Virus record (IMG/VR): IMGVR_UViG_3300021961_000245
Span: 1-38,694 of that record
Direction: 5' to 3' (one strand)
From: a virus
DNA: 38,694 nucleotides
Below, one piece after another: positions 8,930-36,850 of the stretch. The notes beneath the pieces were generated by a model that saw nothing but the letters and a program-made list of their open reading frames with translations, made no database searches and was not told the origin of the DNA. A program made the translations under genes and the position numbers. Each line of letters begins with the position of its first letter. The stretch's first letter is position 1.

Positions 8930-9727
8930 ATGAATCGTATTGCTAAGATTGCTGTTCTCGCTGGTCTGATGGCCACGACTGCTGCATGTACTCGTATCGA
9001 AACAGGTGAAGTCGGTGTTCGGCGTTCGTTCGACAAGACTATTGAAACAACTGAGTTGATGCCTGGTTCTGTAAATCAGACTATCTTCGGTGATGTCATG
9101 ACATTCCCAACGAAGGACGTTCAGGTTGATGTCAGTGACTTGACTCCTCTCGCTTCGGATAACTCCACAGTTGCCGACTTCGATATGGCTGTCATCTACT
9201 CGATCAATCCTGGTTCGGTTGCAGAACTCTACATCGAGAAGAACCGTGGCTTCCACGCTGACACCGAAGAAGGTGACACTCTTCTGATGTACAACTACAT
9301 TCGTCAGCTTGGTCGCAATGCTGCCTATAAGGTTGCTCGTCGTTACGAGTCCTTGAAGATGGCTGATAACCGCGCTGAGATGGAACAGTTGATTCGTCAG
9401 GAAGTTGTAGCACAGCTCGCTTCTGAGAAGCTTGACGGTGCAATTTCAATCTCACAGGTTCTCGTTCGTCAGGTTAAACCTGCCGCTAACATCGTAGCCT
9501 CGGCTAATGCTCTTGTTCAGGCTCAGAACGCTGAAAAGCAGAAGCAAGTCGAAGTTCGCACTGCTAAGCTCGAAGCACAGCGTATCGCTGCTCTGAATGC
9601 CAACGCTGGTGCAACGAAGTACATGGAAGCAACTGCTATCGTTACTATTGCCGAAGCTGTTGCTGCTGGTAAGGTCAACACGATCGTTATCCCTTACGAC
9701 TTCAAGGGCATCGTCAACGTAAAGTAA
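8930..9727 (+). CDS. SPFH/prohibitin-family protein with lipoprotein-type signal
   Basis: A 265-residue SPFH (stomatin/prohibitin) protein, a family that forms ring-like membrane scaffolds. The N-terminus MNRIAKIAVLAGLMATTAAC is a short lipoprotein-like signal with candidate acylated C20, although the residue at -3 is Thr rather than the preferred Leu. The SPFH domain (about 22-190) includes GEVGVRRSF, a VDVSDLTPLASDNSTV beta region and RQEVVAQL. A long Ala/Glu/Lys helix (about 195-235) is followed by a C-terminal YDFKGIVNVK. An anchor by lipid instead of the usual transmembrane helix is noteworthy. Ribosome site AAAGGAAAAG. Confidence 0.85.
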   Translation: MNRIAKIAVLAGLMATTAACTRIETGEVGVRRSFDKTIETTELMPGSVNQTIFGDVMTFPTKDVQVDVSDLTPLASDNSTVADFDMAVIYSINPGSVAELYIEKNRGFHADTEEGDTLLMYNYIRQLGRNAAYKVARRYESLKMADNRAEMEQLIRQEVVAQLASEKLDGAISISQVLVRQVKPAANIVASANALVQAQNAEKQKQVEVRTAKLEAQRIAALNANAGATKYMEATAIVTIAEAVAAGKVNTIVIPYDFKGIVNVK

Positions 9728-11013: not shown

Positions 11014-11320
11014 GATTTTAAAGTATGGCGTGGTATATCCTTGGAACTTTATCTTTAATCATGAGGTAAGTCCTCTTCGAAATATTCCTGACGTCTCAAC
11101 ACGACATTATGTACTGCAGGTTCTGGCTTTTATGTGGGTAGTTGCGTTTAGCGTTGCGATAGGCAATGCAACGTTTTTCTATATTAACTTCCTTGCACAT
11201 GCTGTCTTGATTGGTGCAGCCACTATTACAGTGGCAACATGGACTGCAGCCACTATAAAGCCTAAACTGTTTGTGCGAAAGTCTGGATGGGGACGTAGTC
11301 CTGATGGAGAACATGTATAA
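11006..11320 (+). CDS. Membrane protein, two predicted transmembrane helices
   Basis: A 104-residue protein. Hydrophobic helices at about 36-55 (YVLQVLAFMWVVAFSVAIG) and 59-82 (YINFLAHAVLIGAATITVATW) follow a 30-residue soluble N-terminus; the C-terminus is basic. ATG 11006 is preferred over ATG 11000 because AAGGTG at 10993-10998 is then seven bases upstream. Function unknown; it sits in a coupled chain of small genes. Confidence 0.7.
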   Translation: MNKILKYGVVYPWNFIFNHEVSPLRNIPDVSTRHYVLQVLAFMWVVAFSVAIGNATFFYINFLAHAVLIGAATITVATWTAATIKPKLFVRKSGWGRSPDGEHV

Positions 11321-11625
11321 TGACTTATTTTCTTCGTCGTACTCATGATGGTGCTGGTGACTCTGGTCCGATGTGTGATTTGTTTTTTCCGACCTTCGAT
11401 CAGGATACTGGAAAGGTTCTGAGCGTTGAGACTAAGCACAATGCTCGACCAGAAGTTGGATCCTCTGTTCGTGTCGGTTCTCCTTATGGTCGTACGTATG
11501 CCGGCCAGGATTGGTGGCAGACGACTCTCGTGACAGAGATCCTCGAGCACAAGATAAATGAAGATGATACCGAATATATGCGGTTCAAAACTGGCAACTC
11601 TGAATACGAGTGGGAAATATTCTAA
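11320..11625 (+). CDS. Hypothetical protein
   Basis: A 101-residue protein without recognised motif. It reads as mostly beta (SSVRVGSPYGRTYAGQDWWQTTLVTEIL, then TEYMRFKTGNSEYEWEIF). Start and stop both overlap neighbours as TAATG, so it is translated together with the upstream membrane protein and the downstream ketoacyl synthase homologue. Whether it assists that enzyme is unknown. Confidence 0.7.
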   Translation: MTYFLRRTHDGAGDSGPMCDLFFPTFDQDTGKVLSVETKHNARPEVGSSVRVGSPYGRTYAGQDWWQTTLVTEILEHKINEDDTEYMRFKTGNSEYEWEIF

Positions 11626-12734
11626 TGAAAGAAGCATGCATCGTTGGATTTGGAATGATCGACGCTTTAGGAGACAATCCCATCAACTGTTGGGAGAACA
11701 TGCTGAATGATCGAGACTTCCATAAGCCTATCGAACCTCACGTGCACGAAGGTCACGCGCTCAAAGTAAAAACTGCCTTTTATCCTGATGTCGAGATCGA
11801 CCAAGAATTGCAACCTCGTACTGTAGCATATGGTATGCATGCAGTCGAGCAAGCTTTACATATGGCTGGTCTGCCACACTCTTCAAATGTAGGAGTCATC
11901 TTCTCGACTTTGACAGGTGGAAATTCTTTCAAAGCAAAGCTCGATGCCGTAGGCAGAAAGCAAAAGCCTAAGCAGATCCTTCGCTCTACGAAGGATTATC
12001 TCTGCAGCCAAATTTCAATCAAGTACGGATATACTGGCATCAATACCATGGTGTATTCTGCTTGTGCTACAGGTTTGGTAAGCATCGAATATGCTATGCG
12101 AATGCTCGATGAGTATGACTATGTGATTGTAGGTGGCTCTGATGCTGGCGTAAATCACATGGATCTCTACTTCTTTTCGATTATCAAAGCGATCGGTTCG
12201 AAGTCGATGCCGTTCGATAAGAATCGCGACGGCTTTATTATGGGCGAAGGTGCAGGTTGCATCATCCTTCAGTCGCGAGAAAAGGCCGAAGCGATGGGTT
12301 CGAAGGTCTATGCTCGTATCACTGGAGTTTCGAATGCTTCAGATGCACACGATCCGACTGCACCTTCTGGAGCCGGAGCTCGTCTTTGCTTGGAGAAGCT
12401 GGATCTCGAAGGAGTCGACTCAGTCAACTCGCATGGAACCAGCACTCCGCTCGGAGATGTTGTAGAGTATGACGTGGTTCGCGAGTTTACCGATGCACCG
12501 ATCTATTCCAATAAAGGAAAAATTGGACATACTTTCGCTGCAGCAGGTGTACTTGAAACGATTTATAGTGTACTGTCTATTCAGAACGGCGTGATTCCTC
12601 ATACCGCCGGTTGTCAGGACACTGATATGGATGTAGTGACAGAGAACATCGAGACTGACGTCAAGAAGGTTCTTGTCAACTCGTTCGGGTTTGGTGGTAA
12701 GTGTTGTTCTATTATTGTTGAAAAGGAGTATTGA
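11625..12734 (+). CDS. Beta-ketoacyl-ACP synthase (FabF/KAS II-like)
   Basis: A 369-residue thiolase-fold condensing enzyme homologue; bacterial FabF is about 412 residues. FabF joins malonyl-ACP to an acyl chain. The catalytic set is complete: nucleophile C147 in YSACATG, H270 in NSHGTSTPLGD, K297 and H302 in NKGKIGH (spacing as in FabF K335/H340), followed by a glycine-rich FAAAGVLE and a C-terminal NSFGFGG. The start overlaps the upstream stop. No acyl carrier protein gene is nearby, so it would use the host's. Rare cargo for a T4-like phage; codon use matches its neighbours, so it is not an obvious recent import. Product chain length or a non-lipid role cannot be read. Confidence 0.9.
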   Translation: MKEACIVGFGMIDALGDNPINCWENMLNDRDFHKPIEPHVHEGHALKVKTAFYPDVEIDQELQPRTVAYGMHAVEQALHMAGLPHSSNVGVIFSTLTGGNSFKAKLDAVGRKQKPKQILRSTKDYLCSQISIKYGYTGINTMVYSACATGLVSIEYAMRMLDEYDYVIVGGSDAGVNHMDLYFFSIIKAIGSKSMPFDKNRDGFIMGEGAGCIILQSREKAEAMGSKVYARITGVSNASDAHDPTAPSGAGARLCLEKLDLEGVDSVNSHGTSTPLGDVVEYDVVREFTDAPIYSNKGKIGHTFAAAGVLETIYSVLSIQNGVIPHTAGCQDTDMDVVTENIETDVKKVLVNSFGFGGKCCSIIVEKEY

Positions 12735-12736
12735 TT

Positions 12737-12979
12737 ATGTCTAAGTTTACTGTAGAACTTGATTGGGAAACTGTTGATCATATCGTTGTTGAGCAGCTGC
12801 GTAACACGTGGGAAACTCTGAAGGACGATCTTGGTAAGGGCAGAAACATTTTTGTCTGGGGAGATATCGAAGCAGATGATGCAGAGATCCAAAAGCATAT
12901 CGATGCACTCGCTCTTATGCTCAAGTGGTACTCCACTCCTTCCGAACTGGTAAAAATGGGACTGAAAGACGATGCCTAA
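12737..12979 (+). CDS. Conserved small phage protein
   Basis: An 80-residue acidic protein with a helical appearance (WETVDHIVVEQLRNTWETLKDDL, then a C-terminal SELVKMGLKDDA). Similar short proteins occur in other T4-like phages, to my recollection, without known function. It lacks a GxDS phosphopantetheine motif, so it is not an acyl carrier protein despite following the synthase. AAAGGAG at 12722-12728 supports ATG 12737 over TTG 12731. Confidence 0.75.
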   Translation: MSKFTVELDWETVDHIVVEQLRNTWETLKDDLGKGRNIFVWGDIEADDAEIQKHIDALALMLKWYSTPSELVKMGLKDDA

Positions 12980-13247
12980 GTATCTCGTAGAAGCTATCAG
13001 CATGTTTCGAATGCGTTACGTCGTTGAGGCGAACAATGCATCCGATGCTAAAGACGAAGTCACTATGAACGAAGGCAATCTTCACGAGTTCTCTCAGTTG
13101 CATCTTGACGAGACAATCAGTTATGCTCGTGAGATCGATCAGAAAGAGTATCTTCGTCTATTCGATGAGGATAATGACTATCTCAAAGAGTGGGATGAAG
13201 ATCTTAAACTTAGTTGGATTAATAAGGTGAAATATGGAACAGAATAA
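12972..13247 (+). CDS. Hypothetical protein
   Basis: A 91-residue acidic protein. The N-terminus MPKYLVEAISMFRMRYVVEANNASDAKDEV reads as two beta strands and a helix, a pattern common in small phage proteins that carry an NTD-like alpha/beta fold. The C-terminal half is a charged helix. No function recognised. It overlaps both neighbours by 8 to 14 bases. Confidence 0.7.
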   Translation: MPKYLVEAISMFRMRYVVEANNASDAKDEVTMNEGNLHEFSQLHLDETISYAREIDQKEYLRLFDEDNDYLKEWDEDLKLSWINKVKYGTE

Positions 13248-13497
13248 AGTATATACAATTAAGCTCATGTCGGGTGAAGAACTGATTGCCCGAGTCAAGC
13301 AAGAAGGTGGTGTCACCGAACTATTGAAGCCTCGTACAGTTGGTATGGGACCTCAGGGATTTGCTATGATGCCATGGATGATGTCGGCTCCTGATAACAA
13401 CGTCGTAATCTCTGACACTGTTATCGTCGGAGCGACTGAAACTAGTCAGCAAGTTGCTACTCAATACCTGAAACAAGTAACAGGGATACAAGTCTAA
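13234..13497 (+). CDS. Small phage protein, possible Sm-like fold
   Basis: An 87-residue protein. The N-terminus (YTIKLMSGEELIARVKQE) resembles the first strands of an Sm/LSm RNA-binding barrel, where hydrophobic strands flank a SGEE turn, and VISDTVIVG could be the last strand. A methionine-rich centre (MGPQGFAMMPWMM) replaces the usual loop. The fold assignment is inference from strand pattern only. It lies directly before the SGNH hydrolase with TAATG coupling. Confidence 0.65.
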   Translation: MEQNKVYTIKLMSGEELIARVKQEGGVTELLKPRTVGMGPQGFAMMPWMMSAPDNNVVISDTVIVGATETSQQVATQYLKQVTGIQV

Positions 13498-13913
13498 TGT
13501 TAGAATGTTTGATTATGGGTGACTCGATCGCCGTTGGCACGAAGATGTTTGCTCCGAAAGAATGCGTATCTTATTCGAAGGGCGGTTGGAATACTTGGCA
13601 ATGGAATCGCAAGTGGGGTAAAACTCCGCTTGAAGCCAAGACAATCGTAATCAGCCTCGGAACAAACGACCATAGCGGTGTCGACACAAAAAAGGAGTTG
13701 ACAAAAATTAGAACTCGTATTAAGGTAGGCAATGTAGTATGGATTATGCCTCCTTGTAACAAAGGCTTTTGTAAACCTAAGGTGAATGCCGTAGTGAAAA
13801 GCCTTGCTGTCAGTTATGGAGATCGTATCATCTCTACTTCGTATGTTCAACCAGATAATGTCCACCCATCATGGCGTGGATATAAAGATCTCGTAAAGAA
13901 AGCTGAACTGTGA
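13497..13913 (+). CDS. SGNH/GDSL-family hydrolase
   Basis: A 138-residue hydrolase of the SGNH superfamily, which includes lipases, acyl-esterases, acyl thioesterase TesA and sugar deacetylases. Block I is MGDSIAVG (Ser10), a likely oxyanion residue G30 lies in SKGGWN, block III is SLGTND (N57), and block V is DNVHPS (D120, H123). The catalytic Ser-Asp-His set is intact. There is no signal peptide, so it acts in the cytoplasm or is released at lysis or packaged. Shorter than TesA (about 180 mature). Natural substrate unknown. Confidence 0.85.
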   Translation: MLECLIMGDSIAVGTKMFAPKECVSYSKGGWNTWQWNRKWGKTPLEAKTIVISLGTNDHSGVDTKKELTKIRTRIKVGNVVWIMPPCNKGFCKPKVNAVVKSLAVSYGDRIISTSYVQPDNVHPSWRGYKDLVKKAEL

Positions 13914-14029
13914 CACTTTTCGTTTTTATAGTGTTCATTATTGGAGTTACAGTGTATGGTATCCTTACCAATAGGAATACTCCTGAGGAACGCGATGAAA
14001 TGCTTAATAGTGAGGAAATGTTTCCATGA
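13910..14029 (+). CDS. Very small single-pass membrane protein
   Basis: A 39-residue protein with one transmembrane helix (TLFVFIVFIIGVTVYGIL, residues 2-19) and an acidic tail (NTPEERDEMLNSEEMF). GTG start at 13910 overlaps the SGNH stop (GTGA), and the end overlaps the next ATG (ATGA). The tight coupling on both sides supports it being real. Function unknown; single-pass small phage proteins are often host-takeover or lysis-control factors. Confidence 0.6.
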   Translation: MTLFVFIVFIIGVTVYGILTNRNTPEERDEMLNSEEMFP

Positions 14030-14583
14030 ATTTGTTTATTCTTGATAGTGATCCAGTCAAGGCGGCTCAACTGCAGTGTGACAAGCATGTCGTGAAGATG
14101 ATTGTCGAGAGTGCTCAGATGCTCTCGACTGTGCATCGTATGCTCGACGGCGTCGAGACTCGAATGCCTTCAAAGTCTGGTAAAACCATGTCCAAGGCAT
14201 GGACTCTGCCTGACGAGCGCGAAGATACGTTCTATCGTGCTGTGCATATGCATCATCCTTGCACTGTATGGACTGCACAAAGCAACAACAACTACAACTG
14301 GCATTACGTCCACTTTGTAGCTTTGTGTAATGAGTACACGTATCGCTATGGCAAGGTTCATGGCACAGATACACTCCTTCGAGAAGCACTGAAGAATCCG
14401 CCTCGTAATATTCCAGTGGGTTACAAGACTCCTCAGCCGTTGGCGATGAAGTCGAATCCCGAATGCATGGACTATCGAGACATAGTAGGCTCATATCGTA
14501 AGTTCTACCAGACGAAGCAGGCTCGCTTCAAGATGGCATGGACTAAACGACCAATTCCTGAATGGTTTGCTGTAGCAGCATAA
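14026..14583 (+). CDS. Conserved phage hypothetical protein
   Basis: A 185-residue protein of a family I recall from many T4-like phages, with the strongly patterned N-terminus DSDPVKAAQLQCDKHVVKMIVESAQMLST and conserved HHPCTVW, NNNYNWHYVHFVALCNEY and YRDIVGSYRKFYQTK blocks. The dense conserved His, Cys, Lys and Tyr residues suggest an enzyme or nucleic-acid-binding protein, but I know of no function. It is the last gene before a strong terminator. Confidence 0.8.
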   Translation: MNLFILDSDPVKAAQLQCDKHVVKMIVESAQMLSTVHRMLDGVETRMPSKSGKTMSKAWTLPDEREDTFYRAVHMHHPCTVWTAQSNNNYNWHYVHFVALCNEYTYRYGKVHGTDTLLREALKNPPRNIPVGYKTPQPLAMKSNPECMDYRDIVGSYRKFYQTKQARFKMAWTKRPIPEWFAVAA

Positions 14584-21470: not shown

Positions 21471-21760
21471 TCGGCTTTAAGGAATTCATCACTGAGCGTG
21501 GCGAAGATTCAAAGGGACACTTTATCGCCACCGAGAAGGGTGCAGGTATGACAGCGAAGGGTGTAAAAGCCTATCGTGCCAAGAATCCTGGATCAAAGCT
21601 TCAGACCGCTGTCACAGGTAAAGTAAAACCTGGATCAAAGGCTGCTGGAAGACGCAAGTCTTTCTGTGCTCGTATGAGTGGTGTCAAAGGTCCGATGAAA
21701 GATGAAAAAGGCAGACCGACTCGCAAGGCGATGTCGCTTCGTAGATGGAAGTGCAATTGA
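21467..21760 (+). CDS. Small basic late protein (DUF6321/DUF5872-like)
   Basis: A 97-residue, strongly basic protein. GAGMTAKGVKAYRAKNPGSKLQ, KSFCARMSGVKGPMKDEKG and KAMSLRRWKC form a pattern I recognise as a widespread small family of unknown function, found in phages and bacteria. The N-terminus MIGFKEFITER has the form of T4 capsid targeting sequences, so packaging with the genome is possible. ATGA overlap with the 783-residue gene and a one-base overlap with the Dps-like gene place it in one late transcript. Confidence 0.8.
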   Translation: MIGFKEFITERGEDSKGHFIATEKGAGMTAKGVKAYRAKNPGSKLQTAVTGKVKPGSKAAGRRKSFCARMSGVKGPMKDEKGRPTRKAMSLRRWKCN

Positions 21761-22194
21761 TGGAAGAGATTACAAACCCGCTGAAGGTAGCCTTCGCTGA
21801 CACTTATGCTTTCTATGTGAAGGCACAGAACTATCACTGGAATGTCGAAGGTACATTCTTTGCGATGTATCACGAGTTCTTTGGTAAGATCTACGAAGAA
21901 GTAGGCGGAGCTATCGACACGTTTGCCGAAGAGATTCGTGCTCAGAATGCATATGCTCCTGCAGCATTCGGTCGCTTTAAAGAATTGACAACTATTCAAG
22001 ACGAAGTTCTTATCATTAAGCCTGAACAGATGGTTGCCAACTTGTTCGAAGACAATGCCAAAGTGCTGGCTTCTGTACAAAGAGCAAGAGATGTAGCAGA
22101 CAAGTACAATGAAAACGGTCTCGTTAACTTCCTCGAAGAGAGACTCGATCAGCACAACAAACATGCATGGATGCTCAAAGCATCGATGAAATAA
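21760..22194 (+). CDS. Dps-like ferritin
   Basis: A 144-residue ferritin-fold protein of the Dps group, which oxidises and stores iron and protects DNA. Ferroxidase ligands have the exact Dps spacing: H26 (YHWNVEG), H38 (MYHEFF), D53 and E57 (IDTFAEE). Bacterial Dps is about 165 residues; the lysine-rich DNA-binding tail is missing at the N-terminus, although the C-terminus ends KHAWMLKASMK. ATG 21760 overlaps the upstream stop; an in-frame ATG at 21745 is less likely. Being in a late operon between particle-type proteins, it may act at the end of infection or be packaged. Confidence 0.88.
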   Translation: MEEITNPLKVAFADTYAFYVKAQNYHWNVEGTFFAMYHEFFGKIYEEVGGAIDTFAEEIRAQNAYAPAAFGRFKELTTIQDEVLIIKPEQMVANLFEDNAKVLASVQRARDVADKYNENGLVNFLEERLDQHNKHAWMLKASMK

Positions 22195-36036: not shown

Positions 36037-36459
36037 ATGAGTTGGTTATACGAAGACAAAGAATTTACTGAAGTTGAAGATTATTATGGCTTCATATATC
36101 TCATTGAAAACTTGGTAAACGGCAAGAAATATATAGGCCGCAAGTTTCTGACCAAGGCCGGATATAAAACTGTCAAAGGCAAACGAAAGAAGATTCGCGT
36201 AGAGTCCGATTGGCGCGACTACTACGGCTCTTCCAATTCCCTCAAAGAAGATATAGACTACTACGGAAAAGATAGCTTTCGTAGGACGATACTACGACTT
36301 TGTAAGAGTCGCGGAGAATGCAACTACTTCGAAACGAAATATATATTTGATAACGATGCCATCTTAGATCCTAAGTTTTATAATAATTGGGTGTCGTGCA
36401 AAATTCAAGCAAGCCACGTGAAGGCTTTACTTTTCAACCCCGAACAGGAGAATTTATGA
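36037..36459 (+). CDS. GIY-YIG nuclease-like protein
   Basis: A 140-residue protein whose N-terminus has YGFIYLIEN...GKKYIGRK, the GIY (as GFIY, Y21) and YIG (Y32-G34) signatures plus the following Arg35 and Lys36. The middle block KGKRKKIRVESDWRDYYGSSNSLKEDI and the Glu in NYFETKYIF are typical of the stand-alone phage group rather than of homing enzymes with DNA-binding tails. Could cut host or branched DNA; biological role unproven. Preceded by a possible late promoter. Confidence 0.82.
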   Translation: MSWLYEDKEFTEVEDYYGFIYLIENLVNGKKYIGRKFLTKAGYKTVKGKRKKIRVESDWRDYYGSSNSLKEDIDYYGKDSFRRTILRLCKSRGECNYFETKYIFDNDAILDPKFYNNWVSCKIQASHVKALLFNPEQENL

Positions 36460-36460
36460 G

Positions 36461-36850
36461 GTGGGTAAGGTATTAGAACACAAGCATTTGATTGTAAGAG
36501 CAGAGTTAAATAATCCTCCGCAGTGTACGTCGGCTATCGACGAGTGGATGAAGAAGCTGATCAATCAGATTGACATGAAAATTTTAATGGGGCCATATAC
36601 GGTGTATTCTGATATGGTCGGCAATCGCGGATTGACTGCCGTGACTATCATCGAAACCAGTCATATTGCTCTGCATGTTTGGGATGAATGCGAACCCGCT
36701 CTCGCTCAACTCGATGTATACACATGTAGTGCTCTGAATACTGACGATGTCTTCGAAGCCATGAAAGAATGGGATCCTACAAAAGTTGAGTATAAGTATA
36801 TAGACCGAGAAAACGGGTTGACATTAATTGAGAAAAATGAGGTGTTATAA
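36461..36850 (+). CDS. speD: SpeD-family pyruvoyl enzyme (S-adenosylmethionine decarboxylase-like)
   Basis: A 129-residue homologue of bacterial SpeD, which cleaves itself at a Ser to create a pyruvoyl group and decarboxylates AdoMet for spermidine synthesis. The cleavage region reads I-E65-T66-S67-H68; bacterial enzymes have Glu-Ser-His there, so the residue before the Ser is Thr, not Glu. H72 and the donor Cys C89 (VYTCS) are kept. Relatives exist in other T4-like phages. SpeD homologues with arginine or ornithine decarboxylase activity are reported, to my recollection, so AdoMet as substrate is not certain. GTG start with GGAG at 36448; no speE nearby. Confidence 0.85.
   Translation: MGKVLEHKHLIVRAELNNPPQCTSAIDEWMKKLINQIDMKILMGPYTVYSDMVGNRGLTAVTIIETSHIALHVWDECEPALAQLDVYTCSALNTDDVFEAMKEWDPTKVEYKYIDRENGLTLIEKNEVL

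Follow-up and report, generated by a model that had tools for sequence, protein, structure and literature searches.

Lipid synthesis is a little-studied target in phage takeover. A fabF gene was reported in 2020 in the freshwater SAR11 (Ca. Fonsibacter) myophages, PMP-D, along with genes for a stearoyl-CoA desaturase, speH, and a 2OG oxygenase (PMC7029224). A fabG-acpP-fabF set has been described in Rhodobacteraceae prophages, in which the β-ketoacyl synthase (KAS) was called a phage auxiliary gene (PMC8224337), and lipid desaturases are known from cyanophages (Roitman et al. 2018, as cited in PMC12282109). The portions of PMC7029224 and PMC8224337 available to us contain no description of the KAS family presented below, of its residues, or of a link to desaturases across lineages. 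Because both papers already give fabF in phages, with a desaturase in the first and as fabG-acpP-fabF in the second, the original prediction that the gene studied here would represent a wholly new auxiliary function is not supported. Certain viruses that infect freshwater or marine bacteria carry this divergent KAS, and many of them also have a fatty-acid desaturase.

The KAS gene and its predicted fold

The window is the whole 38,694-nucleotide stretch of viral DNA that was analyzed. The KAS open reading frame (Table 1) has exactly the limits and the 369 residues first proposed for it, running from ATG to stop and sharing one base of its start with the upstream stop codon (TAATG); an in-frame GTG lies 15 nt 5' of the ATG. 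Both KAS domains are present (PF00109, E 4e-28; PF02801, E 1e-19). The NCBIfam fabF model TIGR03150 matches over its full length (E 2e-67), but with 227.9 bits as against a curated cut-off of 493.75. The resemblance to condensing enzymes is not due to chance.

Table 1. Features of the KAS locus, in window coordinates
Feature	Position	Strand	Basis
Phage β-ketoacyl synthase (KAS), 369 aa	11625..12734	+	domain matches, fold, residue alignment
Cys147 nucleophile codon (FabF C163)	12063..12065	+	alignment; coordinates computed from ORF start
His270 codon (FabF H303)	12432..12434	+	alignment; coordinates computed from ORF start
K297-G-K-I-G-H302 motif (FabF K335 to H340)	12513..12530	+	alignment
Gating loop G355-F356-G-G-K359-C360 (GFGGTN in FabF)	12687..12704	+	alignment
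Upstream 101-aa ORF	11320..11625	+	flank common to KAS-less sister phages
Downstream ORF, ~80 aa	12737..12979	+	flank common to KAS-less sister phages

In alignment with E. coli FabF, residues C147, H270, K297, H302, E311, and F356 correspond to C163, H303, K335, H340, E349, and F400, respectively. The four residues that had been put forward as a FabF catalytic set (Cys147, His270, Lys297, and His302) are thus all borne out, and E311 and the gate residue F356 are kept in addition. All six are conserved throughout a diverse set of phage members (28 of 28); of 60 cellular KAS, all or almost all have them too. Values of dN/dS within the window clade are 0.01–0.12, and the gene is under strong purifying selection.

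Structure prediction, which had been suggested as a check, agrees with this assignment. The AlphaFold2 model of the KAS monomer, for which the input alignment consisted of 33 family members, has a pLDDT of 91.8 and a pTM of 0.94. Its top match in the PDB is B. subtilis FabF (4LS5; E 1e-37, TM 0.91), and FabF/KAS II enzymes also fill the 25 ranks that follow; among predicted viral proteins, the only structural matches are to distant KAS (17–22% identity). A FabF-like thiolase fold is therefore predicted with confidence.

A phage-specific clade

Three scans of IMG/VR yielded >80 loci of the phage KAS family, many of them on contigs of 50–235 kb. Members share 39–100% identity and belong to at least five lineages: the window clade (>80% identity) keeps the same phage neighbors, and four further lineages occur in other neighborhoods. 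In two trees, 28 phage KAS sequences formed a single clade (support 100/100) outside the FabF clade, on a stem of 1.9 and ~2.5 changes per site. One of these trees joins the phage clade to FabB (95/95). We distrust this kinship, as the join unites two long branches and was flagged as a possible artefact; the tree lacking FabB still sets the phage clade apart. Phylogeny, the second check suggested at the outset, thus does not place the phage KAS within FabF.

The closest cellular homologues reach only 34% identity and are of the ordinary FabF type. A scan of 84,980 species turned up no nearer cellular homologue (GFGGKC, >45% identity) and, like a search of 299 Pseudomonadota genomes, no donor; a host donor among these was ruled out, since all matches were of that ordinary type (≤34% identical). 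This low identity argues that the KAS is not a recent host copy; it appears instead to be phage-specific and divergent, in a separate deep clade. No true family member was found in an isolate-phage collection of 50,697 phage records, whose 28 matches were all host-like (≤36% identity) and were rejected as cultured relatives. The family has no PHROG.

The gating loop and ACP-docking surface

In E. coli FabF, Asn404 and Asp265 couple two gating loops (PMC7138838). The equivalent of Asp265 is retained in the window protein (D240), and the loop containing Asn404 is altered: GFGG-K-C occurs in every phage member (77 of 77 stored sequences and six new ones), whereas most cells have GFGG-T-N and the Asn is kept in 60 of 60 cellular KAS compared. 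We considered whether this motif was an artefact of the search pattern, and rejected the idea because all members have the same motif even though no C-terminal pattern entered the first scan and the query of the third lacked the C-terminus. Outside the loop, phage-invariant changes include K299, S94, D173, and D13. At the position of K299, which lies within KGKIGH, almost all cells have Met or Ala. Replacement of Asn404 by Cys in every phage member suggests that the kinetics or reaction order of the phage enzyme may differ from those of FabF.

The ACP contacts that we compared are those given for FabF in PMC7138838. Region-1 contacts K65, R68, and K69 are gone in the window clade (a gap, E61, and L62, respectively). 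Region-2 contacts R127, K128, and R206 remain basic in the window protein (R111, K112, and K188), and T270 is kept as T245. With Region 2 and T270 kept and Region 1 lost, binding of ACP is plausible but would be altered. The family as a whole appears to have retained its chemistry while the surrounding parts changed. The original prediction that a T4-like phage encodes an intact homologue of condensing enzymes is supported; that it is simply FabF is not, given the deep separate clade, the altered gating loop, and the partly lost ACP patch.

Accessory cargo of T4-like phages

The window genome encodes gp43 polymerase, UvsX, a gp41-type helicase, primase, and NrdA/B, and a 128-kb sister contig encodes terminase, portal, tail tube, baseplate, and the major head protein. 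The replication genes of the one and the structural genes of the other support the T4-like assignment made initially. Other window genes include a SegE-type GIY-YIG homing endonuclease (36037–36459; PF19835), a protein with likeness to the T4 pyrimidine-dimer DNA glycosylase family (14026–14583; PF03013, barely above cut-off), and, amid phage genes, a Ferritin/Dps-like protein (21745–22194; PF00210).

The ORFs that flank the KAS are present, and the KAS absent, in a sister phage with a 96% identical polymerase (L293) and in the more distant L299. A different small ORF occupies the KAS site in L293. In a second lineage the KAS, usually with a 2OG oxygenase, sits between two genes, c23 and c19, which are close neighbors in many KAS-less relatives. 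The KAS, which such relatives lack at the same site, is thus accessory cargo that has been gained or lost in more than one lineage. A metabolic enzyme under selection, accessory to a bona fide phage genome, has the attributes expected of an auxiliary gene.

The 128-kb sister (G001) carries a permuted alpha-type tmRNA at L282:16325–16690 (RF01849, 87 bits; RF04321, 100 bits) with the tag ANDNDSFADIRLAA, which points weakly to an alphaproteobacterial host. Matches in alphaproteobacterial genomes span just a short conserved tract, and so no genus was assigned. The G+C content of the window phage is 44%, as against 30% in loci L062, L068, and L070; on this basis, its host probably differs from that of the freshwater SAR11 myophages.

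Association with a desaturase

By Pfam alone, a PF00487 desaturase occurs on 11 of 21 KAS-bearing contigs and on none of 33 related KAS-less contigs (Fisher p=4e-6; p=0.007 on contigs ≥50 kb), although the contigs are interrelated and these p values overstate the evidence. The desaturase lies two small genes from the KAS in L040, L047, L052, and L053, and ~3–9 kb away in loci of the L032, L042, L049, L062, and L033 types. It does not adjoin the KAS in the window clade; in the 128-kb sister it is encoded away from the KAS (L285:9933–10658; PF00487, 33.6 bits). Three His boxes are present in 22 of 22 full-length desaturases near KAS. The desaturase recurs in four KAS lineages and was not found in one (L058, L060, and L071 contigs, 55–119 kb). 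This co-occurrence suggests that phages having both enzymes remodel host membrane lipids during infection. The original proposal of a role in lipid synthesis, its novelty apart (PMC7029224, PMC8224337), thus gains real support from the phage desaturases.

A phage-encoded ACP was also sought, but a search for PF00550 in 20 KAS-bearing contigs, several of them incomplete, was empty. The phage KAS therefore probably uses host ACP. A GDSL-like ORF (13497–13913) was discarded as a lipid partner, being under the Pfam cut-off and also present in a KAS-less sister. An SPFH/Band 7 lipoprotein-like protein (8930–9727; PF01145, 53.5 bits) is a possible membrane partner. S-adenosylmethionine decarboxylase (PF02675) is encoded in the window (36461–36850) and near the KAS in the 30% G+C phages (L062:11331–11747). 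Also in L062 is a protein (12219–13301) that is amidinotransferase-like by eye and has no Pfam match. Three to four tandem copies of a ~200-aa family (cluster c3) lie directly upstream of the KAS in L033, L062, and L069, and the copy that was searched had no Pfam match.

Function of the phage KAS

We think it fairly probable that the enzyme is an elongating β-ketoacyl-ACP synthase peculiar to phages, one that T4-like phages infecting aquatic bacteria carry as accessory cargo and use with host ACP to remodel lipids. An acyl chain from host acyl-ACP would be loaded onto Cys147 and then condensed with host malonyl-ACP through His270/His302 and Lys297, in a ping-pong reaction. Fatty acids would thereby shift in chain length or in supply during infection, and in many such phages the phage desaturase would then introduce a double bond. 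Condensation, use of host ACP, substrate, chain length, and effect on membranes are properties that we infer for the phage enzyme. More speculatively, a KAS that evolved in phages and has a rewired gate (Cys for Asn404, Lys for Thr403) might constitute, together with the desaturase and, in certain lineages, an oxygenase, a mobile lipid-remodeling module that makes acyl chains not normally made by the host, an idea that we advance only tentatively.

The enzyme might instead condense acyl groups for a phage-made specialized metabolite, polyketide-like or a modified acyl, rather than for bulk membrane lipid, with the neighboring enzymes serving in tailoring. A 2OG-Fe(II) oxygenase adjoins the KAS in clade B and L066, and Asp/Arg-hydroxylase-like proteins, a class-III aminotransferase, and S-adenosylmethionine decarboxylase are near it in several lineages; the KxKIGH of the phage KAS is also similar to KSNIGH, a motif found in polyketide synthases, in keeping with this route. 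However, T4-like phages from aquatic settings commonly carry such companion enzymes in any case, these vary by lineage whereas the desaturase recurs, and no carrier protein was found in the 20 contigs, making a specialized product improbable.

To a similar degree we doubt that the KAS acts on ACP without net elongation, either as a malonyl-ACP decarboxylase or as a decoy that binds ACP and so slows fatty-acid synthesis in the host or diverts acetyl units. S. pneumoniae FabF with a disturbed gate does yield a shunt product (PMC7138838), and the changes in the phage gating loop and ACP patch would fit such an activity. Yet the whole catalytic set is invariant, including the nucleophilic Cys, for which a decoy would have no need, and purifying selection is strong. 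Lastly, although host-type KAS do occur on phage-labeled contigs (26–36% identity, mostly in unannotated records), a newly acquired ordinary host fabF or host contamination of the contig is scarcely credible here, given the phage-only clade with its very long stem and distance from cells, the phage genes on both sides of the KAS, the sister phages in which this site has no KAS, and the recurrence in >80 viral contigs.

An elongating KAS thus remains our preferred reading. A widespread phage-only clade that keeps the catalytic residues and replaces the gating Asn offers a direct test of the effect of gating on the product of a condensing enzyme, and its pairing with a desaturase a test of whether these phages rebuild membranes.

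Comparison with known systems

The phage KAS shares with FabF/KAS II (B. subtilis 4LS5, E. coli 1KAS) the thiolase fold, the Cys-His-His set with Lys and Glu, the GFGG loop with its gate Phe, Asp265, and Thr270. It differs in having ~30% identity, being >40 residues shorter, and lying outside the FabF clade; in the substitutions T403-N404 to K-C, M337 to K, E191 to D, and G105 to S; in loss of the K65 patch in the window clade; and in scoring under half the TIGR03150 cut-off. FabB/KAS I likewise has the same fold and catalytic residues, but identity is <30%.

Among phages, the 30% G+C loci (L062, L068, and L070) fit the T4-like freshwater gene set in the available text of PMC7029224, and L062-type loci are probably Ca. 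Fonsibacter myophages of that kind; in that text the fabF appears by name only, and its sequence is not analyzed, nor are residues, a family, or a function given. The prophages of PMC8224337, as far as that text extends, have a whole host-like operon including ACP, whereas here a lone phage-clade KAS occurs in T4-like genomes in which ACP was not found. The cyanophage desaturases, as they are cited, resemble this system as a case of acyl-chain remodeling in aquatic phages, but those are desaturases, whereas the phage KAS is a putative condensing enzyme.
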